From positions 1-33,363 of IMG/VR virus record IMGVR_UViG_3300031687_000060: 33,363 bases of DNA, one strand, 5' to 3'. This stretch comes from a virus. Positions 2,982 through 31,700 of this stretch are shown piece by piece. The notes beneath the pieces are model-generated. The model was given only the letters and a program-made list of their open reading frames with translations. It did no database searches and had not been told where the DNA came from. Position numbers and translations under genes: made by a program. Numbering within the stretch: position 1 is the first letter of the stretch; every line of letters starts with the position of its first letter.

Positions 2982-3857
2982 TTATTTTCCTATTGCGTTA
3001 CCGTAAATGTGTACGTGAACTCTGCTTGTATAATTGTAACCTCTTTGGATAGCCTCATCGGCAATGGTTGCCTCTGTTTGTACTAACCCTTCAAATGTAC
3101 CACCAACGCCCATAATCCATACAGGAAAGTTACATCCTGCTTCGCGGAATAGTTTGGTGTTTTCTTCCACTTCTTTCCAACTTGCTTCAGTACCATTAAC
3201 AACAAATTTCAACTGACCATTGTTTGATGCTTCTGCGTACTGCCCTATTACTTCTGGCTTGATTGCTTTCTTACTCATCTCTCCAGCAGTTGCCCAAAGT
3301 TTAGGACTAAGACTCCAATACCATTCACCTGGATACTCTTTAATGTATTCTACCATTTCCTGTTCAATTGGCCTAGTGCCGTTAGTTTCAACAGTAACAT
3401 AGTTAGGCATGTTATTACGTTTCTTAAACTCTTCCATTATATTAATCATACCAGGCTGTGTCTTCTTAAGCATCGGCTCGCCGCCTGTAAACACCATGTG
3501 CACGTTTTGTTGTGTTAGTGGATGTACGAACTTACCCTTAGGTAGAAGTGCTGTTAGCTCGTCTACAGCCTCCTCTACTGTACGATCAGTAATAAGATGC
3601 TTGTAACGTTTACTCCAAGTGTAACTACTGTCACACCCTTTATCAAACACAGGCAAGTCCATAACATCTGTTATGTCTGTTAGGTCTAACGTTTCGTATG
3701 GTAATACATAAGTGCTAGTATCAGTAGGATCCTTCTGTCCAAAGCCGTTACATTGAAGATTACATAGGAAAAATCTCATCCACAAACTAGGTATACCAAC
3801 GTATTGGCCTTCCCCTTGTGCTGAATAAAATGTTTCGCTATACTTTAAAGGGTTCAT
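2982..3857 (-). CDS. queE: 7-carboxy-7-deazaguanine synthase QueE-like radical SAM protein
   Basis: QueE uses S-adenosylmethionine and a [4Fe-4S] cluster to contract 6-carboxytetrahydropterin to 7-carboxy-7-deazaguanine (CDG), the first 7-deazapurine of the queuosine/archaeosine route. Family marks are the N-terminal SETFYSAQGEG (residues 7-17), a cysteine motif in FLCNLQCNGFGQ (C32, C36) and the SAM-binding FTGGEPML (residues 123-130). The usual third Cys of CxxxCxxC is Phe at residue 39; C75 in FDKGCDSSY could be the third ligand. The length (291 aa) exceeds that of typical bacterial QueE (about 210-240 aa), with an insertion after the cluster motif. The start codon overlaps the FolE stop, so both are co-translated. 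Family call is firm; cluster geometry is inferred. Confidence 0.88.
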   Translation of the reverse strand: MNPLKYSETFYSAQGEGQYVGIPSLWMRFFLCNLQCNGFGQKDPTDTSTYVLPYETLDLTDITDVMDLPVFDKGCDSSYTWSKRYKHLITDRTVEEAVDELTALLPKGKFVHPLTQQNVHMVFTGGEPMLKKTQPGMINIMEEFKKRNNMPNYVTVETNGTRPIEQEMVEYIKEYPGEWYWSLSPKLWATAGEMSKKAIKPEVIGQYAEASNNGQLKFVVNGTEASWKEVEENTKLFREAGCNFPVWIMGVGGTFEGLVQTEATIADEAIQRGYNYTSRVHVHIYGNAIGK

Positions 3858-4549
3858 TACTTGTCACATGCAAATTGTTGTTGAAGTTTAATATTATCCA
3901 TAAATTCTTTCTTTGTACCTGGATCATCTTTGAACGCACCTTTTAGAACAGTTGTCTGTGTTAGACTGCTATGTGCCTTAACACCTCTATTCTCTACGCA
4001 CCCATGTGTGGCTTGTATATAAACACCTAAGTGTTCGGCACCAGTTGCCTTCTGAATCTCTCTAACAATGTCGTTAGCAAGTTCTTCTTGTAGTGTTCCA
4101 CGCATAGCACACCATTGTGCTATTCTTGTGTACTTGCTTAGTCCAATTAGTTTGTCACTAGCAATAATACCAATGTATGCTACACCTCTAACTATCTGAT
4201 GGTGATGCGAACACATACTTGTAAGTTCGCTACGCACAACTAACATGCCTTCATAACGATCGTCGCTATCATTTGGAAATGCTGTTGCGATAGGCATTGC
4301 TTCATACCTACCTGCCATTAGTTCGTTAATATACATTTTAGCAAGGCGTTTGCCTGTGCCCATGCTGTTAGGATCATTCTCAGTATCAATTACAAGTCCT
4401 TGTAATACATCTTCAAACTTAACTGCGAGTTCGTCAATCAGTTGTTGCTTTTCGCCTTCTTGTATGTGGTCAGATATATTATCGCCTGCCCAAAATCTTT
4501 TACCTGCGCCAATTAAACGTTTTTTAATTGTGTCACTAACTCCCATCAT
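3857..4549 (-). CDS. folE: GTP cyclohydrolase I (FolE)
   Basis: FolE hydrolyses GTP to 7,8-dihydroneopterin triphosphate, the first step towards both folate and 7-deazaguanines. Zn ligands are visible: C113 and H116 in the motif CSHHHQIVRG and C184 in THGCVENRGV. The GLSKYTRIAQW segment (residues 136-146) and QEELANDIV follow the family consensus. Length (230 aa) matches the bacterial enzyme. Two ATGs are possible (4549 or 4546), with a GGAG site 4 or 7 bases upstream. The gene overlaps the DUF465-like gene at its start and queE at its end. In this context it probably feeds QueD-like and QueE proteins to make a deazaguanine base rather than folate. Confidence 0.95.
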   Translation of the reverse strand: MMGVSDTIKKRLIGAGKRFWAGDNISDHIQEGEKQQLIDELAVKFEDVLQGLVIDTENDPNSMGTGKRLAKMYINELMAGRYEAMPIATAFPNDSDDRYEGMLVVRSELTSMCSHHHQIVRGVAYIGIIASDKLIGLSKYTRIAQWCAMRGTLQEELANDIVREIQKATGAEHLGVYIQATHGCVENRGVKAHSSLTQTTVLKGAFKDDPGTKKEFMDNIKLQQQFACDK

Positions 4550-4736
4550 CTAACTCCTTAATTTGTTCTCTTAGTTCTTCTATTTCTCTCTTAAGATTAA
4601 GTTTCTCAATCTTCTCATTTGCCAATACGGTATCATCTAAATGATGCTCGTAGTCATCTGTTATTTTACTATCTAACTCTCTATGTCTTTCTTCTAAGAC
4701 TTTAAGATGGTTGGACAGACTTATTGATGTACTCAT
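4536..4736 (-). CDS. DUF465-like small coiled-coil protein (66 aa)
   Basis: The sequence is almost entirely helical and charged, with the spaced pattern seen in DUF465/YdcH proteins: a leading helix (LSNHLKVLEERHRELDSKI), an acidic turn and a second helix rich in Leu/Lys/Glu (KLNLKREIEELREQIKEL). These fold as a helical hairpin. Function is unknown in bacteria; copies are common in marine phages. It overlaps the 66-aa gene upstream by 35 bases and folE downstream by 14 bases, so it belongs to the same operon. DUF465 membership is judged by eye from pattern and length. Confidence 0.65.
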   Translation of the reverse strand: MSTSISLSNHLKVLEERHRELDSKITDDYEHHLDDTVLANEKIEKLNLKREIEELREQIKELDDGS

Positions 4737-4902
4737 TGTCTTCCCTCAATACACCGTTTTCCCAATTCTCGCAGACATCGTTAGCATAATGTATGCTCTT
4801 GTCTTTGACGTTAACTGTACCAAACGGTTCGTAATTCTTAAATAAGTGTACGACAAATCCGTTGTCTTCCACTACCTCTGCTTTTTTATAAACTTTAGTC
4901 AT
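4702..4902 (-). CDS. Hypothetical protein (66 aa)
   Basis: A small soluble protein starting MTKVYKKAEVVEDNG. Its composition suggests a short beta-rich domain (VEDNGFVVHLFKNYEPFGTVNV) followed by a helix containing a CENWENG segment. There is no membrane segment or known motif. It begins 3 bases after the phosphoribosyltransferase stop and overlaps the next gene by 35 bases, so it is transcribed from the promoter at 5401-5429. The family is not recognised. Confidence 0.7.
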   Translation of the reverse strand: MTKVYKKAEVVEDNGFVVHLFKNYEPFGTVNVKDKSIHYANDVCENWENGVLREDNEYINKSVQPS

Positions 4903-4905
4903 GCG

Positions 4906-5394
4906 TTATCTCCACCACTCTTCATATGGAAAGACAATCCATCTTTCCTGATCAGGTAAAACATTATTTGCTGTATAACTAACTTTATCAAATTCGCTTG
5001 ACTCTTTGTCAAATAATGTACAATACTTAAGGTCGTCATGACGGATAAACATATTGTTGTTATCCTTACTATCAAAGTCATTGATAATGCTGTCAATACC
5101 TATTAGTGTTGTACCTGTGTCGTTGATATCATCAACAACTAAAACCTTCTTGCCTATGTATTTAGATAAAATGTGTCTAAGAGTGCCGGAATCTTCGATA
5201 TGCCCGTCTCTTGTTTGCCACCTAAATGCTTCGAATGGAACTTCAAAGTAATGGCTCAACATAACACCAAATGGATATGCGCCTCTACCGGGGCCTATCA
5301 CTACATCTGGATGATATGAATCATGGGCCATCTCTCTAACGATGTGTCTGCAGTCTCTATTAAGGACGTCCCAAGTGTAATATAATTTGCTCAT
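4906..5394 (-). CDS. Phosphoribosyltransferase (PRTase type I fold)
   Basis: The product (162 aa) carries the PRPP-binding signature VLVVDDINDTGTTL (residues 84-97, with D88, D89, T93, G94, T95), preceded by the GPGRGAYPFGVMLS loop (residues 34-47) typical of type I purine phosphoribosyltransferases. Such enzymes attach a purine or similar base to PRPP to make a nucleotide. Substrate cannot be read from sequence; the small size and loop resemble xanthine/hypoxanthine PRTases. It is the first gene after a near-consensus promoter and heads the operon that holds folE and queE, so a deazapurine substrate is conceivable but unproven; base salvage from host DNA is the plainer option. Confidence 0.85.
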   Translation of the reverse strand: MSKLYYTWDVLNRDCRHIVREMAHDSYHPDVVIGPGRGAYPFGVMLSHYFEVPFEAFRWQTRDGHIEDSGTLRHILSKYIGKKVLVVDDINDTGTTLIGIDSIINDFDSKDNNNMFIRHDDLKYCTLFDKESSEFDKVSYTANNVLPDQERWIVFPYEEWWR

Positions 5395-5400
5395 GTGTGT

Positions 5401-5429
5401 ATTATACCATATTTTATGGCAGATGTCAA
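5401..5429 (-). promoter_or_regulatory. Early-type sigma70 promoter for PRTase-folE-queE operon
   Basis: On the minus strand, -35 TTGACA (5424-5429) and -10 TATAAT (5401-5406) are both perfect, with a 17-base spacer. The spacer contains CCAT-N5-ATGG, an inverted repeat also found in promoters at 10820 and 23269. The -35 box contains the TGA stop of the 180-aa gene (5426-5428). The PRTase ATG at 5394 is only 7 bases past the -10 box, so the transcript has almost no leader or the real start is further in. Confidence 0.88.
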
Positions 5430-5968
5430 TCGGAATCTAATAAAACTATCTCATTATTGTCAAAATGTTCTAAATCCAATAGAGCCATGTTGTCGTTGAC
5501 ATTGCGTTTTGTCATTTCTAAAAACATTTCGATCTCATTCGCAAATGCTTTATCTAGTATAGGGTTCAGTGATTCTGCTTCCCCAATTTTACCTGTAATA
5601 AGCTCACAGGCATTCTTAAGTGATATTGTAAGACCTTCTACAAGCATTGCGTCAAACCCTTTCAATCGTTTATTAACAAATATAGAACGGTTCAGCATAC
5701 GCATATAACACTCTGCTGATATCTCTTGTATTTTGATTTCAACTCTACACTCTGCGAAAGTTAAATTCTTAAATGTTAAAATGTGATATGGGTCAAATTC
5801 AGTGTACTTACAAAAGAACTGAATACAGTCAATGATGTCCTCTTCATTAACAGGATAGATGTTTTGAATTTCTTCTAAGTCATACCCTGCTCCAATAGAC
5901 TTGCATACTCCCATCATAGGAACAGCATGTCTTTCTGTTACATAAATCCCACGTCTTTTACTGATCAT
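5426..5968 (-). CDS. Hypothetical protein (180 aa)
   Basis: A soluble, mostly helical protein with several Cys residues (for example VCKSIG, FCKYTE, AECRVE, SAECYM) that are not spaced as a recognisable metal site. There is no membrane segment. The start overlaps the galE stop (ATGA), so the two are co-translated. Its stop codon lies inside the -35 box of the next promoter. The family is not recognised. The N-terminal part (GAGYDLEEIQNIYPVNEEDI) is mildly reminiscent of a helix-turn-helix-containing DUF433-type protein, but this is too weak to assert. Confidence 0.75.
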   Translation of the reverse strand: MISKRRGIYVTERHAVPMMGVCKSIGAGYDLEEIQNIYPVNEEDIIDCIQFFCKYTEFDPYHILTFKNLTFAECRVEIKIQEISAECYMRMLNRSIFVNKRLKGFDAMLVEGLTISLKNACELITGKIGEAESLNPILDKAFANEIEMFLEMTKRNVNDNMALLDLEHFDNNEIVLLDSD

Positions 5969-6954
5969 TTATTTTTAATTGCCTTTGATTTATTATCCAA
6001 CCAATTCTTTGAATGTTCAAACATTTCGTCTAAACTGAATTGTGGTTTCCAATTAAGTAATTCATTAGCCTTAGTAGTATCGGCACACAAATAAGATGGG
6101 TCGCCTGCTCTTCTCGGACCAACCACATATTCTAATTGCTTACCTGTAACTTTTTCGACCGAGGAGATTAGGTCATGGATACTAAATCCAACACCAGAGC
6201 CTAAGTTAAATATACCACTCTTGCCACCGTTATTAAGATACTCTACTGCTTTTAGTTTAGCATCAGCAATATCTTGTATATGACAATAGTCTCTAATACA
6301 TGTTCCGTCTTTAGTATCGTAGTCACTACCACAAATATTAAATATCTTACCATTCATAGCACAATCAATTAAGATTGGCATAACATGGCTAGCCGGTTCT
6401 TGTGTATATCCGTTAGTTGCTAAAGGATCAGCACCAGCGGCATTAAAATACCTAGTGCTAACATAGTTTAAACCATATGCTTTATTATAGTCTTCAAGCA
6501 TTAGTTCAGTCATGTACTTACTCATAGCATACGGACTCATTGGATTTGGTGTCAAATCCTCTTTAAATGGTTCTTGTGTATCTCTTTCACCGTATACACT
6601 ACTTGAACCACTAAAGATAAAGTTCTGTACGTCATGTTGTACACACATATCTAACAATGCCTGTGTTCCAGACACATTGTTTCTATAATACTTACCTGGG
6701 TTATCAATACTGTCAGGTACAACATGACTGGCCGCTAAATGTACAACCGTTTTAGGTTTAAACATTTCTAATATGCCTGCTGTTGATTGTTTAGCAAAAT
6801 CATGTGGGAATGATGTGAAGTCTTTCGACGCCCACTTCCTATTACCATTGTCAATAACTATGACTTCATAGTTTGCCTTGGCAAATGTTTTGCTTACCTG
6901 TGTTCCTATAAACCCGGAACCACCTGTGATAACAACTGTTTCTTTATCACTCAT
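5965..6954 (-). CDS. galE: UDP-glucose 4-epimerase (GalE), extended SDR family
   Basis: GalE interconverts UDP-glucose and UDP-galactose using tightly bound NAD. The Rossmann motif GGSGFIG is at residues 11-17, the catalytic pair Y142 and K146 lies in SPYAMSKYMTE, and the upstream SGSSSVYG (residues 115-122) supplies the active-site Ser/Thr. GIFNLGSGVGFS and AGDPSYLCADTTKA match the UDP-sugar-binding C-terminal part. Length (329 aa) is normal. Related NDP-sugar epimerases cannot be excluded. In this phage it may supply sugar nucleotides for the glycosyltransferases at 9566 or 18075, acting on the host envelope, virion or DNA. It overlaps the 55-aa gene upstream and the 180-aa gene downstream. 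Confidence 0.92.
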   Translation of the reverse strand: MSDKETVVITGGSGFIGTQVSKTFAKANYEVIVIDNGNRKWASKDFTSFPHDFAKQSTAGILEMFKPKTVVHLAASHVVPDSIDNPGKYYRNNVSGTQALLDMCVQHDVQNFIFSGSSSVYGERDTQEPFKEDLTPNPMSPYAMSKYMTELMLEDYNKAYGLNYVSTRYFNAAGADPLATNGYTQEPASHVMPILIDCAMNGKIFNICGSDYDTKDGTCIRDYCHIQDIADAKLKAVEYLNNGGKSGIFNLGSGVGFSIHDLISSVEKVTGKQLEYVVGPRRAGDPSYLCADTTKANELLNWKPQFSLDEMFEHSKNWLDNKSKAIKNK

Positions 6955-7114
6955 CTTCTTCTCCTTTGTCTTCGTCTGTAAACAGACCGCCCCTATCTTC
7001 TACTTCGTCGATAGTGTCACTTAATCCTTGAGCAGGTTGTGACTTGGTCGGCTGAATTACAGTCTCTTTGTCACCTCTCTTTTGTATGAAAGGTATACGT
7101 TTTATATTAGGCAC
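6947..7114 (-). CDS. Small hypothetical protein with GTG start (55 aa)
   Basis: The 152-base gap between galE and the Hc1-like gene holds one open frame in register with operon style: GTG at 7114, inside the end of the upstream gene, to TGA at 6947, inside the start of galE. The product begins VPNIKRIPFIQKRG, is basic at the N-terminus and very acidic at the C-terminus (TDEDKGEEDE), and looks disordered. The end carries GGAGAAG, which serves as the galE ribosome-binding site. No family is recognised; coding status rests on overlap on both sides. Confidence 0.6.
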   Translation of the reverse strand: MPNIKRIPFIQKRGDKETVIQPTKSQPAQGLSDTIDEVEDRGGLFTDEDKGEEDE

Positions 7115-7289
7115 TATTTTTTGCTTCTTGGATTTCGTTTCTTCTAGTTTTACATAGTTTAGTGATTTCCATTAATGCCTTTCTTGCTCTTGTGGCTGAG
7201 GCTTTGATACCTGTGCCTTCTTTAAACTTCTCGTTCTCGTTTACATATTCTTCGAATAATGCTTTTAATTTAATATGTGCTTCTGTCAT
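7107..7289 (-). CDS. Histone Hc1-like small DNA-binding protein (60 aa)
   Basis: The 60-aa product has an N-terminal helix (LKALFEEYVNENEKF) and a basic second helix with the pattern ASATRARKALMEITKLCKTRR, which resembles the Hc1 (chlamydial histone H1-like) family, where a G-N-x-A-A-x-R-x-R-K segment is typical. Such small proteins are common in marine T4-like phages and may bind DNA or RNA non-specifically. Here the basic C-terminal extension of chlamydial Hc1 is missing. It has a good AAGGAG site before its ATG. It lies between the QueD-like gene and galE. Family assignment is by eye and moderate. Confidence 0.6.
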   Translation of the reverse strand: MTEAHIKLKALFEEYVNENEKFKEGTGIKASATRARKALMEITKLCKTRRNEIQEAKNSA

Positions 7290-7307
7290 GATTTTCTCCT
7301 TATGTGT

Positions 7308-7775
7308 TTAATCATCGAGCCCTGGGACATACGTCTCCTGAGCATCGTCTTTGTGCGGATTACCACCTTCATACCAACTGCCCTCTTTGGCCTGCGTTAC
7401 TGGTATTGGTTCATGGTATTCCATTTCACAGCCGTTTTCATTATCCTCGGCTACGGATATCTTTATATAGCGATCAGGATACTTTGCTTGTATCGTTAAT
7501 GCTAAATCGTCAGCGATCATCTCGCATGACTTAAAGTCTAGTTGGAGTTCTGCATTTCCATACAGTTTCTCCAACCATCTTTTAAATTGTATGAACTCTA
7601 TATCTCTATCATCATGGAACACTTCAATCCACACTTTAAAGTGGAATGTGTGTCTATGCGGATAGCCTAGGAAACTGACGTCGTACTCGTCGCCAGTCGC
7701 CAAGTTAGGATCAGTTAATGCCGCAGGATACTTATGTATACCTTCTTTACTAAATGTTACCCAAATACTTCTCAT
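7308..7775 (-). CDS. queD: QueD-like 6-carboxytetrahydropterin synthase / PTPS family protein
   Basis: QueD converts dihydroneopterin triphosphate to 6-carboxytetrahydropterin, the step between FolE and QueE. Evidence is a Zn triad pattern: H14 in SKEGIHKYPAA, then H40 and H42 in GYPHRHTFHF, matching the family H...HxH arrangement, followed by a beta-strand and the DRDIEFIQFKRWLE segment equivalent to the GMVxDFxxLK region. A later CEMIADDLA and ISVAEDNENG fit the T-x-E and Glu-containing substrate segments. The catalytic Cys normally found between the first His and HxH is absent. Length (155 aa) is a little long. Without neighbours folE and queE the call would be tentative; the context raises it. 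Confidence 0.65.
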   Translation of the reverse strand: MRSIWVTFSKEGIHKYPAALTDPNLATGDEYDVSFLGYPHRHTFHFKVWIEVFHDDRDIEFIQFKRWLEKLYGNAELQLDFKSCEMIADDLALTIQAKYPDRYIKISVAEDNENGCEMEYHEPIPVTQAKEGSWYEGGNPHKDDAQETYVPGLDD

Positions 7776-7783
7776 ACTATTCC

Positions 7784-7981
7784 TTAAACAATATTACTTG
7801 CTTGTGGGCCTTTCGGTCCTTCTTCAAGATCATACGTCACTTTTTGATTTTCTTCTAGTGATGTATATCCGTCTCCTTTGATTGCCGAAAAATGTGCGAA
7901 CACATCTTTGCCACCTTCTTCCGGTGTAATAAATCCAAAACCTTTAGATGTATTAAACCATTTTACTGTACCATTTGCCAT
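7784..7981 (-). CDS. csp: Cold-shock protein CspA family
   Basis: A 65-aa single OB-fold protein. It has the RNP1-like motif KGFGFITP (residues 13-20) and the RNP2-like motif VFAHFSAI (residues 27-34), preceded by [10 protein letters not shown], all diagnostic of cold-shock domain proteins that bind single-stranded nucleic acid and melt RNA structure. The ending PQASNIV is also typical. It lies 8 bases upstream of the QueD-like gene and downstream of the small membrane gene group. Phage copies may act as RNA chaperones during infection; that role is inferred. Confidence 0.95.
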
Positions 7982-7997
7982 TTCTTTCTTCTCTCTA

Positions 7998-8191
7998 TTA
8001 TGAAGTCTTACCTTCGTTATTAAATTCTAAAGGTAATTCCTTCAAAATGCGAAACTTATTATTAAGTCTCTTATATCCAACTCCCAACGTATTACGTTGT
8101 TCATCTTCAATTCGTTTATTTGAATCTTTTATGATCCAAATCCTAACTGGCCTTTAATCCAGTCATTAATTTCTTGTTGTGTCAAATCCAT
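7998..8191 (-). pseudogene. Small gene apparently broken by a -1 frameshift
   Basis: An ATG at 8191 overlaps the stop of the 137-aa gene (TAATG) and opens a frame MDLTQQEINDWIKGQLGFGS that stops at 8129. A second frame, offset by -1, is open from about 8158 to TAA 7998 and reads IIKDSNKRIEDEQRNTLGV then a basic stretch and [10 protein letters not shown]. It has no ATG, GTG or TTG near its beginning. Joined, the two would give about 64 residues and fill the gap exactly. A single missing base near 8132-8150, real or from sequencing, or programmed frameshifting, would explain it. I see no classical slippery heptamer. The family is not recognised. Confidence 0.5.
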
Positions 8192-8604
8192 TATGCCTCT
8201 TTGTTTGGGTTCCAAATAGTTAAGTTTTTAGTCTTAAGTCTATTAGCAACAATACTGTATCTGTTTTGTTCTGCCTTCCATTCCTTTAACCACTTGTGGC
8301 CATCGCGTTCAGCATCAATAAAGATAGCATTAGTAAATGCTAATGGTAGTAATACCCCAACATGAACAAAAATGCTTATGAGTGTATTGTATCCAAACAA
8401 ACCTAAATAGTTTGCCGCTATAAAACCAAAGAACACACTCCATACAGTGAACAGCACTAACATAAAGTAAGTCTGTAGACTTGGGTCCGGTATGTATTTC
8501 AATGGATTGTATTTCACATCCATAACTCTTCTCCAACTATTTACAAGACTGAACATGGTTCGTCTAAATAAACTTGGCTTTTTCATAATTGGTTCAATCT
8601 TCAT
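8191..8604 (-). CDS. Multi-pass membrane protein, hypothetical (137 aa)
   Basis: The N-terminus is basic and amphipathic, followed by at least two hydrophobic segments at about residues 46-70 (TYFMLVLFTVWSVFFGFIAA) and 74-95 (NTLISIFVHVGVLLPLAFTN), then a charged, Trp-containing C-terminal tail. It is probably an inner-membrane protein with two helices and both ends in the cytoplasm. The start ATG 8604 overlaps the stop of the 31-aa gene; an in-frame Met at residue 7 is an alternative. It belongs to a run of small membrane proteins after a glycosyltransferase. Function unknown. Confidence 0.75.
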   Translation of the reverse strand: MKIEPIMKKPSLFRRTMFSLVNSWRRVMDVKYNPLKYIPDPSLQTYFMLVLFTVWSVFFGFIAANYLGLFGYNTLISIFVHVGVLLPLAFTNAIFIDAERDGHKWLKEWKAEQNRYSIVANRLKTKNLTIWNPNKEA

Positions 8605-8696
8605 TCTGTATGCTCTCTTATATATTCTTTAACTACATGCATCCCATATGATGCCCATGTAATTACTATTAAACTCCATATTAACAATTCGATCAC
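8601..8696 (-). CDS. Single-helix membrane micro-protein (31 aa, GTG start)
   Basis: The gap between the DUF481-like gene and the 137-aa membrane gene contains one short frame: GTG 8696, overlapping the upstream TGA as GTGA, to TGA 8601, overlapping the next ATG. The product begins MIELLIWSLIVITWASYGMH and consists of one membrane helix followed by a charged cytoplasmic-type tail. Precise four-base overlap at the start and overlap at the end make chance unlikely. Function unknown. Confidence 0.6.
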   Translation of the reverse strand: MIELLIWSLIVITWASYGMHVVKEYIREHTE

Positions 8697-9361
8697 AGCT
8701 CTAATTCAAAGCCGAATGTTAGTATGTTTTCTTTCTTATAACTATCTGTATGCTGATTTGATACATTTATACTAAATTTATCACTAACCTGATATGCTAA
8801 TTCTGTTTCTATACGGATGTATGCTTCTTTGCTAGTTTCGTATAGTGCCTTATTTGTAATACTAATACGTTCAGACATCATGTATGCTACCCACAAACTA
8901 TTTCTTAAAATAAGTTCCGTGGTGTCACCTTCTAAATATGCTAGTGATACTTCGTTACTGACTTTCCACTTGTCGCTTTTGTATAGTTTACGACCGTACC
9001 CTGCGCCTAGCACACTTCTTATATCGTAGTCTCGTATCTCATCGTAGTCTACTTGAAGTACTGTTAGGAAGTAACTTTCATCTGTTAGGTCTTTGTTTAG
9101 TTTAAATTGAGTGTAAAGGTCATGGAATTCCACGTCACCGTTTTCACTGGCATAGTAGTAATCGCTTTCGAATACATACTGCCAACCATTTTCTAGTTCT
9201 GTTCGATGATCAAAGTCTAAATTGACTGTAACTTCGTCCTTGCCACTAGCGAATATTTCACCGCTACCACCTATAGTTGTTTGTGCCGCTACTTGAACAG
9301 TACACAACAAAAGGAATACTATTACAAATATTGATATTACTGATTTCTTAACTGTACTCAT
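8693..9361 (-). CDS. DUF481-like outer-membrane beta-barrel protein
   Basis: The product (222 aa) begins with a clear signal peptide (basic MSTVKKS, hydrophobic residues 8-22, cleavage after VAA near residue 26). The mature part is a series of amphipathic strands with alternating residues (ENGWQYVFESDYYYAS, SYFLTVLQVDYDE, GAGYGRKLY, EVSLAYLEGD) and ends in a strand with a terminal hydrophobic residue (LTFGFELEL), as in outer-membrane barrels. GAGYGRKL plus the strand pattern resembles DUF481 (YdiY-type) proteins. It would be inserted in the host outer membrane, where it could alter receptor access or permeability. It overlaps small membrane genes on both sides. Confidence 0.7.
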   Translation of the reverse strand: MSTVKKSVISIFVIVFLLLCTVQVAAQTTIGGSGEIFASGKDEVTVNLDFDHRTELENGWQYVFESDYYYASENGDVEFHDLYTQFKLNKDLTDESYFLTVLQVDYDEIRDYDIRSVLGAGYGRKLYKSDKWKVSNEVSLAYLEGDTTELILRNSLWVAYMMSERISITNKALYETSKEAYIRIETELAYQVSDKFSINVSNQHTDSYKKENILTFGFELEL

Positions 9362-9573
9362 TTAAAACCTAGTTCCTTTAATGCTTGTTGTCTTGTCTTG
9401 CCCATTTTTTCTAATGCTTCGTTTATTTCAAAGTCGTAGTAAGCACCTGTAAGTTTTCTAAGTGCCGATCTTTCGCTTAACATTACACTACTGATCCAAC
9501 AGCCGTATAACATAAACCCTAGTAGTACTATAGTAAATACTGTATTAAAAATTAATGCCATAATCTCATTCAT
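9358..9573 (-). CDS. Single-pass membrane protein (71 aa)
   Basis: One strong hydrophobic helix at about residues 5-30 (LIFNTVFTIVLLGFMLYGCW) is followed by a charged, helical cytoplasmic-type tail ending in KTRQQALKELGFK. The start overlaps the glycosyltransferase end by 8 bases, and the stop overlaps the DUF481-like start (ATGA). No family is recognised. Position suggests work together with the outer-membrane barrel protein and the two smaller membrane proteins downstream. Confidence 0.7.
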   Translation of the reverse strand: MNEIMALIFNTVFTIVLLGFMLYGCWISSVMLSERSALRKLTGAYYDFEINEALEKMGKTRQQALKELGFK

Positions 9574-10795
9574 ATTTTTGCTTCGCTACTTTTCGTCTGT
9601 AGTATTGTCTATCTCTTTGATACTCTAATCCTAATCCTGCCATAACCTTTAATGTTCTTTCAATAGTACCATTCTGATAATCGCTGATCTTACCTAAGTT
9701 ATATCCATCTAAATTGTGTGCCGATATGTCATCGAACATGTTTTCTAATTTACTTATAGCGTCTTCTAAACTCCAAGGAACGTATAAGTGTCTACCGTTG
9801 TTAGCAAATACTTCTGGAAAACTTCTATATGCTGGATATAGTGTAAGTGTACCAAGTGTGTCTGCTTCGCTAACAGTATTGCTTACCCAATCTTGTAAAG
9901 CACAATTAAACAACACTTTGCTATCTGCCAAGTAGTTGTAGTAATCATTCTTCTTTAAGCCTGTGTATATTTTAAAGTTAGCCGTATTGCCTTCTTGTAA
10001 TGCCATAGCACGATCTACATACTCTTGGTCTGAACTCTTTAGTTCAGGATGTCCACAAAATATAGCAAACTCTGTGTTTGGATCTATTTTATAGTATGCT
10101 TCTGCTAAGTCCATATAGAAATGCGGTTGTTTCTCGTCGTCCCAACGTGCCGCAAATCCAACTCTATTTGATCGTTCATGTAACGGCTTTAGTTCTGGAA
10201 CTCTACTTTGTACTTCTTCTTTACCAAACGGTAAACCTGTTACATATATTGGCTTTTTAAAGCCTGCTGTTCTTAAATGTGCTACAAACTCCTCTGAGGC
10301 TACACAGATGCCATCAACAAATTCATCTACCATTTGTTCATATCTACGCATCCAGTCAAACATACCTTCCCTAATTAAGAAGTCATCTGGGTCTGTTGTT
10401 TGTGCTAAGAATCTAAGGAATACTTTAGGTCTGTACTCCGGTGGGGACTGATCCATGATATACGGTAAACATTCTAAACCAGGTGTATACATATCTTCAT
10501 AAAAGATAACATCATCACTAGTTATTTCACCGTTCTTCATTTTTTGTACTAAGTTCATTGTTTGACTTAGACTGTAATAACTTCTACCATGTGCGTCTAA
10601 CACACTACCTGTAACGATTGCTTTACTATTATCAAGTTCTTCACCTTCGATAATTTCGTAGTCTAACCCGTACTCTTTAAAAACACGTTCGTTCCATTCC
10701 TGTAACTGAAGTGTGTACCTTGCTTCATAAGACTCTAGTCCCATGTAAAACAATTTACGAATACTATTATTAATTAAACCGTTATCTTCTATCAT
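9566..10795 (-). CDS. GT-B fold glycosyltransferase
   Basis: The 409-aa product has two halves. The C-terminal half carries GT4-like features: a strand and donor-loop segment RVGFAARWDDEKQPHFYMDL (residues about 217-236), IFCGHPE, and an acidic motif region in SNTVSEADTLGTLTLYPAYR equivalent to the E-x7-E donor-ribose site. The N-terminal half includes GSVLDAHGRSYYSLSQ and FYEDMYTPGLE. It should transfer a sugar from a nucleotide donor. Acceptor is unknown: host surface glycan, virion, or a modified DNA base. It is the first gene after a near-consensus promoter (10820-10848) and is followed by membrane and outer-membrane genes, which favours an envelope target; the DNA-modification genes directly upstream keep a DNA target open. 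Confidence 0.75.
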   Translation of the reverse strand: MIEDNGLINNSIRKLFYMGLESYEARYTLQLQEWNERVFKEYGLDYEIIEGEELDNSKAIVTGSVLDAHGRSYYSLSQTMNLVQKMKNGEITSDDVIFYEDMYTPGLECLPYIMDQSPPEYRPKVFLRFLAQTTDPDDFLIREGMFDWMRRYEQMVDEFVDGICVASEEFVAHLRTAGFKKPIYVTGLPFGKEEVQSRVPELKPLHERSNRVGFAARWDDEKQPHFYMDLAEAYYKIDPNTEFAIFCGHPELKSSDQEYVDRAMALQEGNTANFKIYTGLKKNDYYNYLADSKVLFNCALQDWVSNTVSEADTLGTLTLYPAYRSFPEVFANNGRHLYVPWSLEDAISKLENMFDDISAHNLDGYNLGKISDYQNGTIERTLKVMAGLGLEYQRDRQYYRRKVAKQKYE

Positions 10796-10819
10796 ATCTC
10801 TCTATCCTCATTATCTACT

Positions 10820-10848
10820 ATTATATCACTTTTTGTGGCTAATGTCAA
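10820..10848 (-). promoter_or_regulatory. Early-type sigma70 promoter for glycosyltransferase operon
   Basis: On the minus strand, -35 TTGACA (10843-10848) and -10 TATAAT (10820-10825) are perfect with a 17-base spacer. The spacer contains GCCAC-AAAAA-GTGA, a slightly weaker version of the CCAY-N5-RTGG inverted repeat seen at 5401 and 23269. The -35 box contains the TGA stop of the 38-aa gene. About 24 bases of leader precede the glycosyltransferase ATG at 10795. Confidence 0.88.
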
Positions 10849-10961
10849 CCTTTTTCTATTTCTGTAAATGCTTCATGTCCTTCAAAGAACATCTGTATCA
10901 TTACATATACTGCTACGTTAACAAACGTTAGTGCCGCAAACAAAATCCATGTAGTCAACAT
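10845..10961 (-). CDS. Single-helix membrane micro-protein (38 aa)
   Basis: This frame starts at ATG 10961, overlapping the upstream stop as TAATG, and ends with TGA 10845 inside the -35 box of the next promoter. The product begins MLTTWILFAALTFVNVAVYV, a single membrane helix, followed by MIQMFFEGHEAFTEIEKG. Composition and exact start overlap support a real gene. Function is unknown; several similar micro-proteins lie in the operon just downstream. Confidence 0.6.
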   Translation of the reverse strand: MLTTWILFAALTFVNVAVYVMIQMFFEGHEAFTEIEKG

Positions 10962-11467
10962 TAATCTATAACCTCGTCTTTTGTGTATTTGGTCCAATCT
11001 GTAAATGTCTCTCTTGTTTGTAAATCATGTAAACTATGACACCATACACCTGGGTTTGTTGCCTTAAAGTCTTTGTCATCTAGTTTAATAGTAGTATTGT
11101 AATTGAACTGATTCATGTATGGCAACTTAACACTTATCATTGGTATGAATGTTGCGTACTCTGTCATACCGCATTCCAGTACTTGTTCTGCTAATGTTAC
11201 ATCAAAGTCTAGTGTTAACCAGATACCTTCCTTGAGCATGTCATTAAGTAATGTATCCCAGGCCGCCCATGCTTCTGCGTCCTTAGGATGGAAACTTTGA
11301 TTGGCTCCTAAGTAAATATGCGGACAAGCATTGTTTAATGCTCTAGCAAGTATTTCTTCTTTGGGCTGATACCCAACTACAAATAACGTCCTTTGACCAT
11401 AAGCAGGAGTATGCTCTACTTCTGTGCCTATAAAAAACTTTGTATCCACGTGACCTTCTCTATCCAT
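10961..11467 (-). CDS. Conserved-type hypothetical protein beside DpdA/oxygenase genes (168 aa)
   Basis: The protein alternates strand-like and helix-like segments (TLFVVGYQ, CPHIYLGANQSF, WLTLDFDVT, YATFIPMISVKLPY, NYNTTIKLDD), which suggests a small alpha/beta or partial TIM-barrel fold. The motifs FFIGTEVEHTPAYG and TNPGVWCHSLHDL look like strongly constrained positions, and there is a possible metal or substrate set of His, Asp and Glu. I recall similar proteins in marine T4-like phages without an assigned function. It follows the 2OG-Fe(II) oxygenase gene by one base and shares its operon with dpdA, so a part in base modification is a reasonable hypothesis only. Confidence 0.75.
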   Translation of the reverse strand: MDREGHVDTKFFIGTEVEHTPAYGQRTLFVVGYQPKEEILARALNNACPHIYLGANQSFHPKDAEAWAAWDTLLNDMLKEGIWLTLDFDVTLAEQVLECGMTEYATFIPMISVKLPYMNQFNYNTTIKLDDKDFKATNPGVWCHSLHDLQTRETFTDWTKYTKDEVID

Positions 11468-11468
11468 C

Positions 11469-12152
11469 TTAATTACCTATTCCAAAATCTGTGTGTAATT
11501 GCTTTTTTAATTTTTCCATAACAAATGAATCTTTGTGTAATGCGTTTTTCAATTGGGAAGGGTCAAAGTATAAATCTTTTTCTTTTCCTTCCTGCTTCTG
11601 AAATCCAATGTACACTGATAATCTTACTTCGCTTTTATTAATTACTTGTTGTATTTGATGAAATAGGGTACCTGGGAATATAACACATCTATTAAACTTA
11701 TGCTCAATTAGTGTTGCTCTATCTTCTCCTAAATAAAAGCCACCGCCTTCATCTTTAAAATATGGATTACCAAACCAAAGAAATATTAAAATATCTTTTG
11801 TAAGATGATCAACATGCCCTTCAAAAGTATCGCACTCTTGTGTGAGATTAACATGACATCTTACGCAATCTGTGTATTTAAAATCTGTTCCATGTTCTTC
11901 ATTCCACTTTGTTACATAAGGAAGTATTGTAGTTGACATCTTAAATACATCTTCAATATCTTCTTTGGTCAATCCTTTTGTAAAGTAAAAAGAACTTTCC
12001 CCTTCTGCGTCTGGATAAGGATTCTCTACAGCACTTAATACAAAACCACTTTTCATATAATATCTAAGCCAGTCGCTACACATTTCTTTGCTGAAAAAGT
12101 CATCAACAATTAGTACTGGCTTATCTTCAACAACTAGTGATTGCGTATTCAT
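11469..12152 (-). CDS. 2-oxoglutarate/Fe(II)-dependent oxygenase (prolyl 4-hydroxylase-like)
   Basis: Double-stranded beta-helix oxygenases bind Fe with an HxD...H triad and 2-oxoglutarate with a distal Arg. Here these are H113 and D115 in FEGHVDH, H165 in GTLFHQIQQV, and R177 in EVRLSVYIGF. The intervening FLWFGNPYFKDEGGGFYLGE and the start VDDFFSKEMCSDWL are typical for P4H-like members. Length (227 aa) fits. Substrate could be protein, nucleotide base or small molecule. It overlaps the 64-aa gene at its start and lies two genes downstream of dpdA, which makes oxidation of a DNA base an attractive but untested role. Confidence 0.85.
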   Translation of the reverse strand: MNTQSLVVEDKPVLIVDDFFSKEMCSDWLRYYMKSGFVLSAVENPYPDAEGESSFYFTKGLTKEDIEDVFKMSTTILPYVTKWNEEHGTDFKYTDCVRCHVNLTQECDTFEGHVDHLTKDILIFLWFGNPYFKDEGGGFYLGEDRATLIEHKFNRCVIFPGTLFHQIQQVINKSEVRLSVYIGFQKQEGKEKDLYFDPSQLKNALHKDSFVMEKLKKQLHTDFGIGN

Positions 12153-12346
12153 TAGTAACTAATGTAACCCCATTCAACTAATTGTGCTTGAAAGAATGTT
12201 GCTTTCCTTACACTAAAATCCATCGGTGCTTGTATTTTACCATCCTTGGTTTCGATGATTGTTACACCTGTATCAGTTACTTCAAAGTTCACGTCATGTC
12301 CTTCGTGTGTATAAGTACCACTGTATACTGTTTTACTCTCCGTCAA
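12152..12346 (-). CDS. Small hypothetical protein, TTG start (64 aa)
   Basis: The frame starts at TTG 12346 with a GAGGG site 6 bases upstream; no in-frame ATG exists before residue 42. It overlaps the end of dpdA by 14 bases and its stop overlaps the oxygenase ATG (TAATG). The product is small and beta-rich (TYTHEGHDVNFEVTDTGVTI) with a hydrophobic helical end, and it looks like a compact soluble domain. It is sandwiched between dpdA and the oxygenase, so it could be an accessory subunit. No family is recognised. Confidence 0.65.
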   Translation of the reverse strand: MTESKTVYSGTYTHEGHDVNFEVTDTGVTIIETKDGKIQAPMDFSVRKATFFQAQLVEWGYISY

Positions 12347-13874
12347 AGTCTGCCCTCATTATGTCTTCTTGCATGTCCATTTCGCTGTCACCAGCGTCGT
12401 ATTCGTCAGTTTCAAACAAAGAACCAAACGTTGATTGTTCAGCACTACCATCTGAGAAACTAATTTCTTTTAAGAACTCTCTACCATCTTCTAGCATTTG
12501 TCTTGCGTTAGTGTTTGCTGGGTCTAATACTTCTTCGGCAAAACTATCAAACATGAGTATGGTACCGGGTACATAAGGTGATGTTTCATTGCTTACACTA
12601 CTGCCTTTAACCTTTTTCCAGTTCTTCCAATGTGTTGGTGTTCTATATTTTTCCATATCAGCCAGTCTATTTGCTTCTTGTGTTGCTGTAATATGATTAT
12701 AAACACTATGACCCATGTAAAGAGCATAACTAAGGGTGTCCCAACTAGTTGTACATTCTTTACCATTTCTATTTGTATCACCGTGTCCTAAAACACAGAT
12801 GTCGCCGACAGTAAGTCTTTCCATTATAGGGGAATGAGCAAAAGGCATAGGCATTGTAGAACCTTTCATGTCTTTGTTATCGAATGCTCTATCCATAAAG
12901 TATCCAAATCGCTTTGCTCTAAACTCATTATGTGTGTATGTCTGACCATATGCTGTATTAACAAAAGGTGATGCCGCATCATACGATACTGTAACATTAG
13001 GATTATCATGTTTTCTTAACTGTCTTTGAATACTGGTGAGGTGACATGCCCAATTTAGGCGTCCAGTACCCAAGAAGTGAATCCAATCCTTTCCTTCAAG
13101 TAGTCCATCGTCTCTAAGATCTAATATTCTACTTAACACACTATGCATGTGTTTCATATTGATACCAGCGAATGCGTAACCTTCTAAGGCTCTGTTCTCA
13201 TCACCGTATGCTTCTTGCACAAAACTTGGATTAGAAAAATGCTTTACAGCCTCATACCATTCTTTGCTATTTTCTTCATTGCTACCACTTAGTACATTTA
13301 GGAACTTAGTAGCACCTGGGTTTCTATTTCTTAGAAAGTAGTCTAAATTTAATAAACTAATATCTAATGTATCTCGGAATTCAGTTAGTCCGGTTCTTTC
13401 GCTCAGTTTGCCTACTGCCGCAAACGCCGGAACGTCAAGTGTCATACTCCAGTCTGCTGTATGCTCTAGCCATGTAAGTATCTTATTACAGAATGCTGTT
13501 CTAACAGGGTCATTAGGATCTTTAGCATTGCTCCAGTCCATTTTAATAACACCAGTAGCAAGTTGGAATCCACCCGAGTCACCAAGTATCATTGTTTGGC
13601 TACGGTCTCTGCCTTGTATCATTGGCTCACGTTCATCACTCTTTACAGGATCTAACTGTGCGTGACCACCTGAGTATAGTCCCCATGGATAAAAGTAATA
13701 ACTATCTTCCGGGTCTAGGAAGTTCATGCCAGCAGTACCTTTCTCAAAGCCTGCCGGGCATCTCCATTCTGTTGGATTAGTCGCCATCTTTTGTAATTGT
13801 GTTACATAGAAGCCACTAATAGCAGGTAAGTATACTGCCCAATCCTGATGCTTCTTTCCTAGATCTACTGTCAT
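12333..13874 (-). CDS. dpdA: DpdA-like DNA 7-deazaguanine transglycosylase (TGT superfamily)
   Basis: TGT enzymes swap guanine for a 7-deazaguanine in nucleic acid; the DpdA branch acts on DNA. The 513-aa product has the diagnostic ILGDSGGFQLATG (D99-Q104; TGT SDSGGFQ base-binding loop), then MTLDVPAF (D147; equivalent to TGT D156), FLNVLSGSN (near TGT Q203/G230 region), FLGTGRLN, and VSYDAASPF (D299; likely the nucleophile, TGT D280). Spacing between these resembles bacterial TGT but with insertions and a long acidic C-terminal tail, and it lacks the tRNA-enzyme C-x-C-x2-C zinc motif in recognisable form. It follows the sliding-clamp-like gene by 3 bases. FolE, QueD-like and QueE elsewhere in the window would supply its base. 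Family call is strong; DNA specificity is from phage context. Confidence 0.85.
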   Translation of the reverse strand: MTVDLGKKHQDWAVYLPAISGFYVTQLQKMATNPTEWRCPAGFEKGTAGMNFLDPEDSYYFYPWGLYSGGHAQLDPVKSDEREPMIQGRDRSQTMILGDSGGFQLATGVIKMDWSNAKDPNDPVRTAFCNKILTWLEHTADWSMTLDVPAFAAVGKLSERTGLTEFRDTLDISLLNLDYFLRNRNPGATKFLNVLSGSNEENSKEWYEAVKHFSNPSFVQEAYGDENRALEGYAFAGINMKHMHSVLSRILDLRDDGLLEGKDWIHFLGTGRLNWACHLTSIQRQLRKHDNPNVTVSYDAASPFVNTAYGQTYTHNEFRAKRFGYFMDRAFDNKDMKGSTMPMPFAHSPIMERLTVGDICVLGHGDTNRNGKECTTSWDTLSYALYMGHSVYNHITATQEANRLADMEKYRTPTHWKNWKKVKGSSVSNETSPYVPGTILMFDSFAEEVLDPANTNARQMLEDGREFLKEISFSDGSAEQSTFGSLFETDEYDAGDSEMDMQEDIMRADFDGE

Positions 13875-13877
13875 GTT

Positions 13878-14621
13878 CTAACTCTTTGCTGGTAAAATGT
13901 ATGTGTACTCGCCTAAGCCACTGTCAATAACAATCTGCATTGCTCCAGCATTAGCAAAACTTACAGTACAATTAGCACTATCACTAAGTCTTAAAATACT
14001 TAATGCTTTATCAATTTCCCACTTCCAGTTACCTGACAGTTCGCCTTCAACATTGTTGTTGATAGGTAGTTTACTTTTGTCTCCAGCACCTTCGCCAATG
14101 CTAAAGAATAAAGCACCGTCTTTGGTACTTGGGGAGAACACAGGTTCAAATCCACCTAACACACCATTGAAGTAACCTAAGTCCTTTAAGTTCTTCTGCG
14201 TAGGTTGAATACTGACATCCCATGGAATATCTTTCATCTTAACAGACTTCAGTTGCTGATTAATAACATCTGCTAACATAAATCTGTAACTACCTGTATG
14301 ACCTTCAGCACTAGAAAAACTAATTTCTACTGGAATGTCATTACCATTTCTTTCTTGAGTCTTTACTTCGACGTTACTACCTTCATCTCCAAACCCTGGA
14401 AACTTTAAGTAGCCGTCTAGTACACTCATTCTGCTTAGACCAACTGTTTGATCTACAAAGTCTGCTACAGGGTTGTGTAGTTTGCCTTTTAGAATAACAG
14501 TTTTATCTGCGTCCATCGCCTCAATCTCAGTACCTTCTGTAGTACCTGTAATTTTAACCATTTCAATGAAGCCTAAAGCATGGGTATGCCTTAACACGTC
14601 TTTAAAAATATCTTTTATCAT
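13878..14621 (-). CDS. 45: Sliding clamp (T4 gp45-like)
   Basis: The clamp encircles DNA as a trimer, tethers gp43 and, in T4, also activates late transcription. The 247-aa protein (T4 gp45 is 228 aa) is beta-rich and acidic with two similar halves: an N-terminal domain with FVDQTVGLSRMSVLDGYL in place of the clamp linker/domain-1 helix and a C-terminal half with WEIDKALSILRLSDSANCTVSFANAG, ending in GEYTYILPAKS, much like the final strand of PCNA-type clamps. The gene directly follows the polymerase gene, as replication genes cluster in T4-like phages. Primary sequence similarity to T4 gp45 is low, so the call depends on length, pattern and neighbour. The start has a GAGGTG ribosome-binding site. 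Confidence 0.7.
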   Translation of the reverse strand: MIKDIFKDVLRHTHALGFIEMVKITGTTEGTEIEAMDADKTVILKGKLHNPVADFVDQTVGLSRMSVLDGYLKFPGFGDEGSNVEVKTQERNGNDIPVEISFSSAEGHTGSYRFMLADVINQQLKSVKMKDIPWDVSIQPTQKNLKDLGYFNGVLGGFEPVFSPSTKDGALFFSIGEGAGDKSKLPINNNVEGELSGNWKWEIDKALSILRLSDSANCTVSFANAGAMQIVIDSGLGEYTYILPAKS

Positions 14622-28771: not shown

Positions 28772-31700
28772 CTACTCCGCCATCACAAACGTTATCCAAG
28801 CATGGGTGCTTGTTCCAAACGATCTACTTGCTCCTGTAATGGCTTCCGTTACTTTTAAGTCTACATTAGCCACAGTAGAGAAACTACCGAATGCTGTTGG
28901 AGAGCCTATTGAACCACCGCCATCTACAGTTCTAACTGTCCAGTCACCAGCAACACCGTTCATCACATATTTGTGATTACTGTAATCATAACCATGAGCC
29001 ATAACTGCTATTGGTGGATAACTAAATCCTGTAAATTGTACTTCTATTTCAGCACCTGCGGCACTTGTAACTGTTGTTGCGTTAATTCCTGCTGTGCTAT
29101 CTGATATACTTGTTAGTGTACCTGATGTGCTGTAGTTTAATTTTAATCTTTCATAAGTACCCGGTCTGGTTGATCCGCCACCGCCACTTGAAACAAACGT
29201 AACAGTATCAGTGCCAGCGTCTGTAGTAATAGTCATACCACTACCGCCAACTAATGTTAGTGTATCTGTTGCCGCGTCTGCGACTACACTACTTTGTCCT
29301 GATACAGCAATAGTTTTAAATACTTCTGAACTACCACCGCCACCTTCACCTTTGTCACCTTTGTCACCTGCCGCTCCAGCCGATCCATTTGATCCAGCAC
29401 TACCAGTTGGTCCTGCGACCGTACTGTTATCACCTTTCTGTCCTTTATCACCTGATGGACCTTGTGCGCCATCGCTACCGTTACTACCAGTACTACCTTG
29501 AGCTCCTTGCGGTCCTATTGAACCAGTTGCTCCCTTATCACCAGTTGGTCCTGTTGGGCCACCTAGTTCTCCTTTTTGTCCTTTATCACCTGTTGGTCCA
29601 TTTGATCCTACGTTACCTTGCGGTCCTAATGGTCCTGTGGCTCCTGCTGGGCCTGTTCCACCCGCATTACCTGTTGTTCCTTGTGAACCCTGTGGACCTG
29701 TTGGTCCTTGTGATCCTATTTCTCCTTTTGATCCTGTTGATCCATCTGATCCATTTGAACCAGTTGTACCTGCAGTTCCTTGTAATCCCTGAGCACCCTG
29801 TGATCCTTGAGCTCCTTTATCACCTGCTGGACCTGTTCCACCAGCACTACCAGTTGGTCCTACTACTGTACTATCTGCTCCAGTGGCTCCCTGAGCTCCT
29901 TTATCACCTGTTGTTCCTTGTGGTCCTGTTGGTCCATTTGGTCCTACTACTGTACTATCTGCTCCAGTGGCTCCTTTGTCGCCATTTGATCCATTTGATC
30001 CATTTGATCCTGCTGGTCCTGTTGAACCATTTGGTCCTGTTGGTCCGGCACCACCTGTTGATCCTACTTCACCTTTGGCACCTGCGGCCCCTGCACTACC
30101 AGTTGTACCTGTAGTACCCTGTGGGCCAATTGCTCCTTTGTCGCCTGTTGTTCCTGTACTGCCTGCTGGTCCAGTAGGTCCTTCTGAACCTGTTGATCCT
30201 GCTGGTCCTACTGAACCAGTTGTACCTGCTGTACCTTGAGCTCCTTGAGCTCCCTTATCACCTGCGCCGCCAGCCGCTCCAGCCGGTCCAGTACTTCCTG
30301 CCGCACCTGCACTACCAGTTGCTCCAGTACTTCCGCCTGCTCCTACTTCACCTTTTGATCCTGTTGCTCCATTTGATCCAGCACTACCAGTTGCTCCAGT
30401 GGCTCCTTTAGAACCGCCACTTGCTGTAGCATCGATAGTAATTGTGTTTGAAGCATTGTCGGCTGTTATTGTTGCGTTAGCACCAGCCGTAAATGTTAAT
30501 GTTTCGCCTGTTCCTGTTGCTACTACACTATTACCACCTGTTACACTAACTGTTTTAAATGCTTCAGTGGCTCCGCCACCTCCGCCACCTGCTGAGTTAG
30601 TGATAATAACTTTATCTAATGATGTATCAGTTGTTAATGTAATACCCGAACCTGCTTCAAATGTTAACGAGTCTGATGTATTCTCTGCTACGATAACGTC
30701 TTGCCCAGCCACTACTACATTTTTAAATGAGTCTTGTGGTTGATTTGAATTAGTAATTGTTACTGTATCGCCTGTGACCGCTGTTGTTATGCCCGAACCA
30801 CCGATAACATTAAATGTGTCATCTTTAGTACTTGCTGATGTTGAACCTGTGTCACCTGTTACAGTTTTATAAAATCTTAATGCGTCAACGTTAGCACTAA
30901 TATATGTGTTAACTTGACTTTTTGTATATTTGTCAATAGAAGCATCATTTAATGTTGCGTCAATGACAACACTATCAGTACCAGCATTTGGTGTAAAACT
31001 AATGTTAGCACCACTGGTAAATGTCATAGTGTCTGAGTTAGTCTCTGCTACAACATAAGTACCATCGAACACTAAGTTCTTAAATGTACCTGTTATCGCA
31101 TCAGACTTGGAAATTTGTATTGTACTGTTAGCCGTGTATTGATTTAAACTAATACCATCGCCACCTTCGAATCTAATTGCTGATGTGGCTGTTGCGGCAT
31201 TAATTGTGTTGGCTGAACCAACTACATTAACTTGGCTAATAGAATTTTGTAATTGTGCTGATGCTATATTGGCATCAACTTGTGCTTTACTGTAAACACT
31301 TAAATTTGTTCTTGCTGTACTTTTAGATGCCAAGTCACTTAGGTTAAGTGTTTTGTTTGACATGTTAGCAAGTGTAGTATAGTCTAAGTTAGTTCCACTA
31401 GTACCAATTCGTAGAGCGTAATCGGCTGTACCTTTAAAGTTACTAGCATAAATGTTTAAGTATACTTTAGATGAACTACCAATGTCGTACGCCTGTGTTG
31501 TACCTGGTGTACTAGATGCGTTCTTAGGAATATAATTTGCTAAGTTGGCTGTTAGTTCACTCGGTGATACACCTGACAATGATACTGATGTCCAACTAAG
31601 GCTACCACTACCGTCTGTTTTTAAAACTTGTCCAGTAGTACCATCTGATGTTGGTAATGTAAATACATTTGAAACTGTTAAACTTCTGTTAGCATTAATT

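Follow-up and report, generated by a model that had tools for sequence, protein, structure and literature searches.

A putative QueC-independent 7-deazaguanine DNA-modification module, possibly with a glycosylated base, in an aquatic phage

We analyzed a 33-kb fragment from an aquatic phage (IMG/VR record IMGVR_UViG_3300031687_000060, positions 1 to 33,363; hereafter, the window). The same virus is found, at 99.9% identity, inside a 66.7-kb IMG/VR contig. We propose that the window carries a module that modifies DNA with a 7-deazaguanine formed independently of QueC, and that the base may be glycosylated; we give this reading a probability of roughly 0.6. The module comprises GTP cyclohydrolase I (FolE), a phage-type 7-carboxy-7-deazaguanine (CDG) synthase (QueE), a 513-amino-acid DpdA-like protein from the tRNA-guanine transglycosylase (TGT) superfamily, a probable QueD paralog of 155 amino acids (QueD-like), a glycosyltransferase (GT), and a conserved partner protein of 168 amino acids (o168). 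An earlier interpretation of this DNA from its letters alone (the sequence-only reading) had proposed a 7-deazaguanine DNA-modification pathway with precursor genes, a DpdA-like protein, and no QueC. We retain those elements, but not its identification of the 155-amino-acid protein as QueD, and it had overlooked GT and o168.

If our proposal is correct, it would add a large and uncharacterised subfamily of DpdA-like proteins, a form of deazaguanine chemistry that does not pass through preQ0, and a potential case of a glycosylated purine in DNA. To our knowledge, all of the sugar-bearing bases in phage DNA are pyrimidines. Modified DNA could help the phage evade bacterial defences. Cultured carriers exist (PA5oct-like Pseudomonas phages and ACP17), so the module is open to direct testing.

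A widespread module that lacks QueC

The four open reading frames (ORFs) that the sequence-only reading had named are all present at its positions, on the minus strand: QueE (2982-3857), FolE (3857-4549), QueD-like (7308-7775), and the TGT-like protein (12333-13874). Family models confirm FolE (PF01227, E = 3.7e-37) and QueE (PHROG 2076, E = 4e-51, with a match above the cut-off to the radical SAM family PF04055). QueE is 35–45% identical to the QueE proteins of KVP40 and PA5oct. (Between Cys 2 and Cys 3 of its radical SAM cluster motif, CNLQC ... GCDSSY, this QueE has an insert of ~40 amino acids, which is common to nt-1, PA5oct, and others.) GT (409 amino acids, 9566-10795) and o168 (10961-11467) are on the minus strand as well.

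We used hidden Markov models to scan 62 loci that contain the TGT-like gene and at least 6 kb of downstream sequence. QueD-like and GT were each found in 59 of these loci, o168 in 56, FolE in 52, QueE in 32, and QueC in none. We also took 79 loci with QueD-like as an independent anchor; 61 of these had the TGT-like gene, 65 had GT, 49 had o168, and, again, none had QueC. Because the arrangement is conserved over so many loci, chance can be ruled out. This is a discrete and widespread module, conserved in many environmental viruses, and GT and o168 are conserved members of it.

As the sequence-only reading had noted, QueC is missing from the window, and we did not find it in the 66.7-kb contig either, although the window's record is a fragment and does not cover the complete genome. 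We also found no canonical QueC in 13 large contigs, in 15 relatives at a closer or intermediate distance, or in 11 of the 12 isolates that encode QueD-like (the exception is D479). The QueD-like carriers without QueC include PA5oct, Phosso, ACP17, phiST, RHph_I1_18, Bakedbeans, Ahp1, BUCT-ZZ01, phi13:1, and MA9V-3. Conversely, QueD-like was absent from the four QueC-bearing phages that we tested (nt-1, 9g, Illi-2, and Vibrio phage 2.275.O). The opposition of QueC and QueD-like is significant even with D479 counted as QueC-bearing (p = 0.003, Fisher's exact test), for a set of QueC phages that we had picked and not drawn as a sample. That QueC is missing is a fixed feature of the module and coincides with the presence of QueD-like; this makes it less likely that the base is preQ0 made with the host's QueC, which the sequence-only reading had listed as one option.

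Some close relatives have weak matches to QueC models, but these are ORFs of 333–336 amino acids with an SGGIDS motif that resemble NAD synthetase (NadE-like), and we rejected them, along with two other PP-loop ORFs, as canonical QueC. The NAD-synthetase-like PP-loop protein is encoded by L130 and L131, which are close relatives of the window's virus.

A probable QueD paralog may act in place of QueC

The window's QueD-like protein matches only PHROG 17812 (2e-32), whose function is unknown; on its own it does not match the PTPS model. In an alignment of 35 QueD-like sequences, the zinc histidines (H14, H40, and H42) and E110 are invariant, but there are no equivalents of QueD's catalytic Cys27 or Asp70-His71 (E. 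coli numbering). Furthermore, a separate, true QueD (PTPS) co-occurs with QueD-like in PA5oct, Phosso, ACP17, phiST, BUCT-ZZ01, and RHph_I1_18, elsewhere in 7 of 13 large contigs that carry QueD-like, and in 24 of the 79 QueD-like-anchored loci. So the 155-amino-acid protein is probably a paralog of QueD, rather than the pathway's QueD. Since the genomes that encode it lack canonical QueC, the protein probably stands in for QueC by acting on CDG. (By profile, QueD-like matches only bacterioferritins in PDB, and we judged these to be chance matches.)

We also considered that the 155-amino-acid protein might be a diverged QueD in an ordinary pathway, with CDG or host-derived preQ0 as the base and with GT and o168 as unrelated neighbors. 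This would fit with the retention of the zinc histidines and the E110 motif and with the apparent lack of any other QueD in close relatives of the window (up to 92 kb). Also, CDG has already been suggested as the base in the QueC-less phage Bipper (Hutinet et al. 2019, PMC6884629). However, a diverged QueD seems inconsistent with the missing catalytic residues and with the co-occurrence of a true QueD, and an ordinary pathway would not explain why the lack of QueC is systematic. Nor does GT behave like an unrelated neighbor: it is tied to QueD-like across lineages, and in Phosso, the two genes form a pair that lies ~170 kb from the TGT-like gene. We consider this alternative to be unlikely.

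The 513-amino-acid protein appears to represent a new DpdA-like subfamily

Searching PDB, Pfam, PHROG, and NCBIfam with the 513-amino-acid sequence or its family profile gave nothing useful; there were no matches in Pfam, PHROG, or NCBIfam. The sequence-only reading had suggested comparing a predicted structure to TGT. The AlphaFold2 (AF2) model has a mean confidence (pLDDT) of 88.9, and in a Foldseek comparison of this model to PDB, the top four matches and six of the seven best were murine or human TGT/QTRT2 chains (probability 1.00, best E = 6e-4). The DSGGFQ motif, the second aspartate, and the likely nucleophile that had been picked out by eye correspond to D99, D147, and D299, which are invariant in 36 sequences of the family. 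(On the minus strand, their codons start at 13580, 13436, and 12980.) In alignment, D299 falls on the nucleophile aspartate of E. coli Tgt (FDCVMP).

These results place the predicted fold in the TGT/DpdA superfamily, as had been proposed, but the protein does not belong to DpdA1 or DpdA2. It has no BLAST match to DpdA1 of 9g (hhalign probability 0.1) or to DpdA2 of nt-1 (at E ≤ 1), and it is not matched by the DpdA2 profile PHROG 10773, unlike the proteins from ACP17, X1, and BUCT-ZZ01. HH comparisons give only remote similarity, to DpdA2 of ACP17 (probability 91) and to the Illi-2 protein (probability 97). We therefore view it as a new DpdA-like subfamily that is set apart from DpdA1 and DpdA2 by sequence.

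Among 50,697 phage records, tblastn found relatives at 50% identity in PA5oct-type Pseudomonas jumbo phages and at ~30% in Sinorhizobium phage Phosso and Vibrio phage 2.275.O. The P. putida Illi-2 group matched weakly, and no Campylobacter phage or haloarchaeal virus record matched. A profile scan of IMG/VR found more than 580 related stretches among the matches listed.

Genomic context suggests that this protein is a DNA transglycosylase. A family B DNA polymerase (14712-17420, minus strand; PHROG 262, 1.4e-201) lies upstream of the TGT-like gene, as the sequence-only reading had reported. The polymerase is the constant upstream neighbor of this gene across the fetched loci (108 matches), and in phage 9g, DpdA also adjoins DNA polymerase. 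Alternatively, the protein might modify tRNA or another RNA, in a queuosine-like manner. The nearest solved folds are tRNA-guanine transglycosylases, and animal tRNA contains glycosylated queuosine, so a sugar on an RNA base would have a precedent. But the constant proximity to DNA polymerase weighs against this. Also, the characterized phage members of the superfamily, as far as is known, act on DNA (PMC6884629), and ACP17, X1, and BUCT-ZZ01 use DpdA2 in the same module; DpdA2 of nt-1 was assigned to the insertion of preQ0 into DNA (PMC6884629). An RNA target seems very unlikely to us.

The glycosyltransferase and o168

We assign the 409-amino-acid protein to a GT4-type (GT-B) glycosyltransferase family by profile similarity and conserved motifs. 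Ten of 34 family members match Glycos_transf_1 (PF00534, best 3.4e-7); the window's protein itself scores under the curated cut-off. Conserved residues include R217, E221-K222, and an Ex7E-type motif ((D/E)302-x7-E310). In 65 of the 79 QueD-like-anchored loci, GT lies within 3.3 kb downstream of QueD-like on the same strand. PA5oct, Phosso, ACP17, BUCT-ZZ01, and X1 encode GT, and we did not find it in the QueC-bearing phages nt-1, 9g, Illi-2, and 2.275.O.

The AF2 model of o168 has a pLDDT of 91.8, but it has no structural match in PDB at E ≤ 0.001. Among viral structures, it most closely matches the protein from the ACP17 module (E = 1.3e-7).

Proposed pathway

By homology, FolE would form dihydroneopterin triphosphate; QueD, from an unseen part of the genome or from the host, would form 6-carboxytetrahydropterin (CPH4); and the phage's QueE would form CDG. 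We propose that QueD-like then converts CDG, with decarboxylation to 7-deazaguanine as the simplest possibility. The 513-amino-acid protein would exchange guanine in the phage's DNA for the modified base, via a covalent intermediate at Asp299. GT's role would most naturally be to add a sugar, probably to either the base or its precursor; o168 may assist at some step. The outcome would be DNA that resists restriction. In 2023, Cui et al. reportedly saw both dCDG and 7-deazaguanine (dDG) in some phages and predicted a CDG decarboxylase, DpdL; such QueC-less bases and such an enzyme would be compatible with the genes seen here.

Several observations weigh against our proposal. DNA as the target is argued from gene context, and the CxCxxC...H zinc site of canonical Tgt is not kept in the DpdA-like family (only C360, in 34 of 36 sequences, and H389 remain). 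The homology of QueD-like to QueD is suggested by the layout of motifs and is statistically weak: hhalign gives a probability of 38 (E = 3e-4), and just 3 of the 35 members match PTPS (PF01242, best E = 0.058). A true QueD was missing from the window's close relatives, as mentioned above. D479 encodes QueD-like along with a partial QueC-like PP-loop match. The sampled loci are not phylogenetically independent. As for the sugar, the enrichment of GT across 16 genomes is not significant by itself (p = 0.24), so its association with the module rests on adjacency counts; about half of the isolated phages with QueD-like lack GT; and a fully decarboxylated base would offer GT only C7, which is awkward for glycosylation.

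Given these last points, we considered that the final base might be plain dDG or dCDG, while GT acts on a protein, the cell surface, or another base. Once decarboxylated, the base carries no substituent to which a sugar could be attached, and seven phages have QueD-like without GT (phiST, phi13:1, RHph_I1_18, Ahp1, Bakedbeans, D479, and MA9V-3), which implies that the product of QueD-like must be usable on its own. But this does not explain why GT adjoins QueD-like so often in the QueD-like-anchored loci, or why GT is also found in three phages that use DpdA2 and in the bacterial clusters described below. We view a plain base as somewhat unlikely, and we favor a QueC-independent base that is possibly glycosylated.

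Related modules in other phages and in Alphaproteobacteria

Similar modules are found in cultured phages. Acidovorax phage ACP17 has FolE, o168, GT, QueD-like, and QueE, and no QueC, but its transglycosylase is DpdA2 (37% identical to that of nt-1, E = 1e-49) and a QueD lies within the cluster. Xanthomonas phage X1 and Synechococcus phage BUCT-ZZ01 likewise have the same gene set with DpdA2 replacing the 513-amino-acid protein. The Pseudomonas jumbo phages (PA5oct, Wroclawvirus) have our TGT-like subfamily along with the polymerase, GT, QueD-like, and QueE in one cluster; they differ in that o168 is distal and two PTPS/QueD genes lie elsewhere, and the genes are annotated as hypothetical. The nt-1/KVP40-type phages with DpdA2 also combine FolE, QueE, QueD, and a TGT-superfamily transglycosylase in a large phage (PMC6884629), but the transglycosylase is from another subfamily, QueC is present, and QueD-like, GT, and o168 are not. 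In Vibrio phage 2.275.O, the homolog of the 513-amino-acid protein is clustered with QueF, a YhhQ-type transporter, a QueC-type protein, FolE, QueE, and QueD.

In a genome scan, the TGT-like protein also had relatives encoded on bacterial chromosomes, most of them alphaproteobacterial. Seven bacterial loci (L223, L230, L233, L235, L237, L238, and L244, mostly from Rhodobacteraceae) contain the TGT-like gene, a GT of the same family (HH probability 100), and a YhhQ-type transporter (Vut_1, PF02592). We checked six of the seven transporters against PF02592, and they matched with E = 1.5e-6 to 4e-5, mostly just under the curated cut-off. The presence of the transporter ties GT and the TGT-like protein to a supply of 7-deazaguanine that does not depend on the phage's biosynthesis genes. 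These clusters could be DNA modification or defence systems. (The TGT-like gene of Shinella, Ciceribacter, and others faces a gene for an 880-amino-acid protein whose C-terminus appears, by eye, to be glycosyltransferase-like.)

More broadly, we tentatively suggest, at slightly less than even odds, that this is a widespread and unrecognised form of DNA hypermodification. Phages, and Alphaproteobacteria with the YhhQ-type importer cluster, would replace guanine with a 7-deazaguanine formed independently of QueC and subsequently add a sugar to it. This would draw on the new DpdA subfamily, a QueD paralog with a changed role, a GT4 enzyme dedicated to the pathway, and o168.

Other genes in the window

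Two neighbors of the module might contribute to it. A phosphoribosyltransferase (4906-5394, minus strand; PF00156, 1.2e-16) is a frequent neighbor, with 50 homologous ORFs in the loci, and it may salvage the guanine that is set free by base exchange. Many loci have this gene next to FolE/QueE; in BUCT-ZZ01, an annotated xanthine-guanine phosphoribosyltransferase is beside QueE. A nucleotide-sugar epimerase/dehydratase (5965-6954, minus strand; PF01370, 2.8e-55) is also frequent, with 38 homologous ORFs, and might supply the sugar donor for GT.

Between the polymerase and the TGT-like gene is a 247-amino-acid protein (13878-14621, minus strand) with 108 matches in the fetched loci. The sequence-only reading had labeled it a clamp, but its sole match is to PHROG 12062, whose function is unknown. 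A gene similar to 2-oxoglutarate (2OG)-Fe(II) oxygenases lies between the o168 and TGT-like genes (11469-12152); it is mostly missing from relatives, and with just 8 matches in over 100 loci, we rejected it as a member of the module.

A second gene of the 2OG-Fe(II) oxygenase type is found at L134:11213-11794. Upstream of the window, the same virus encodes a protein similar to amidinotransferases and arginine deiminases (L134:6530-7603; PF02274, 3.8e-5). Finally, 28772-32305 encodes a tail-fibre-like protein of 1177 amino acids with a long region of collagen-like G-x-y repeats.

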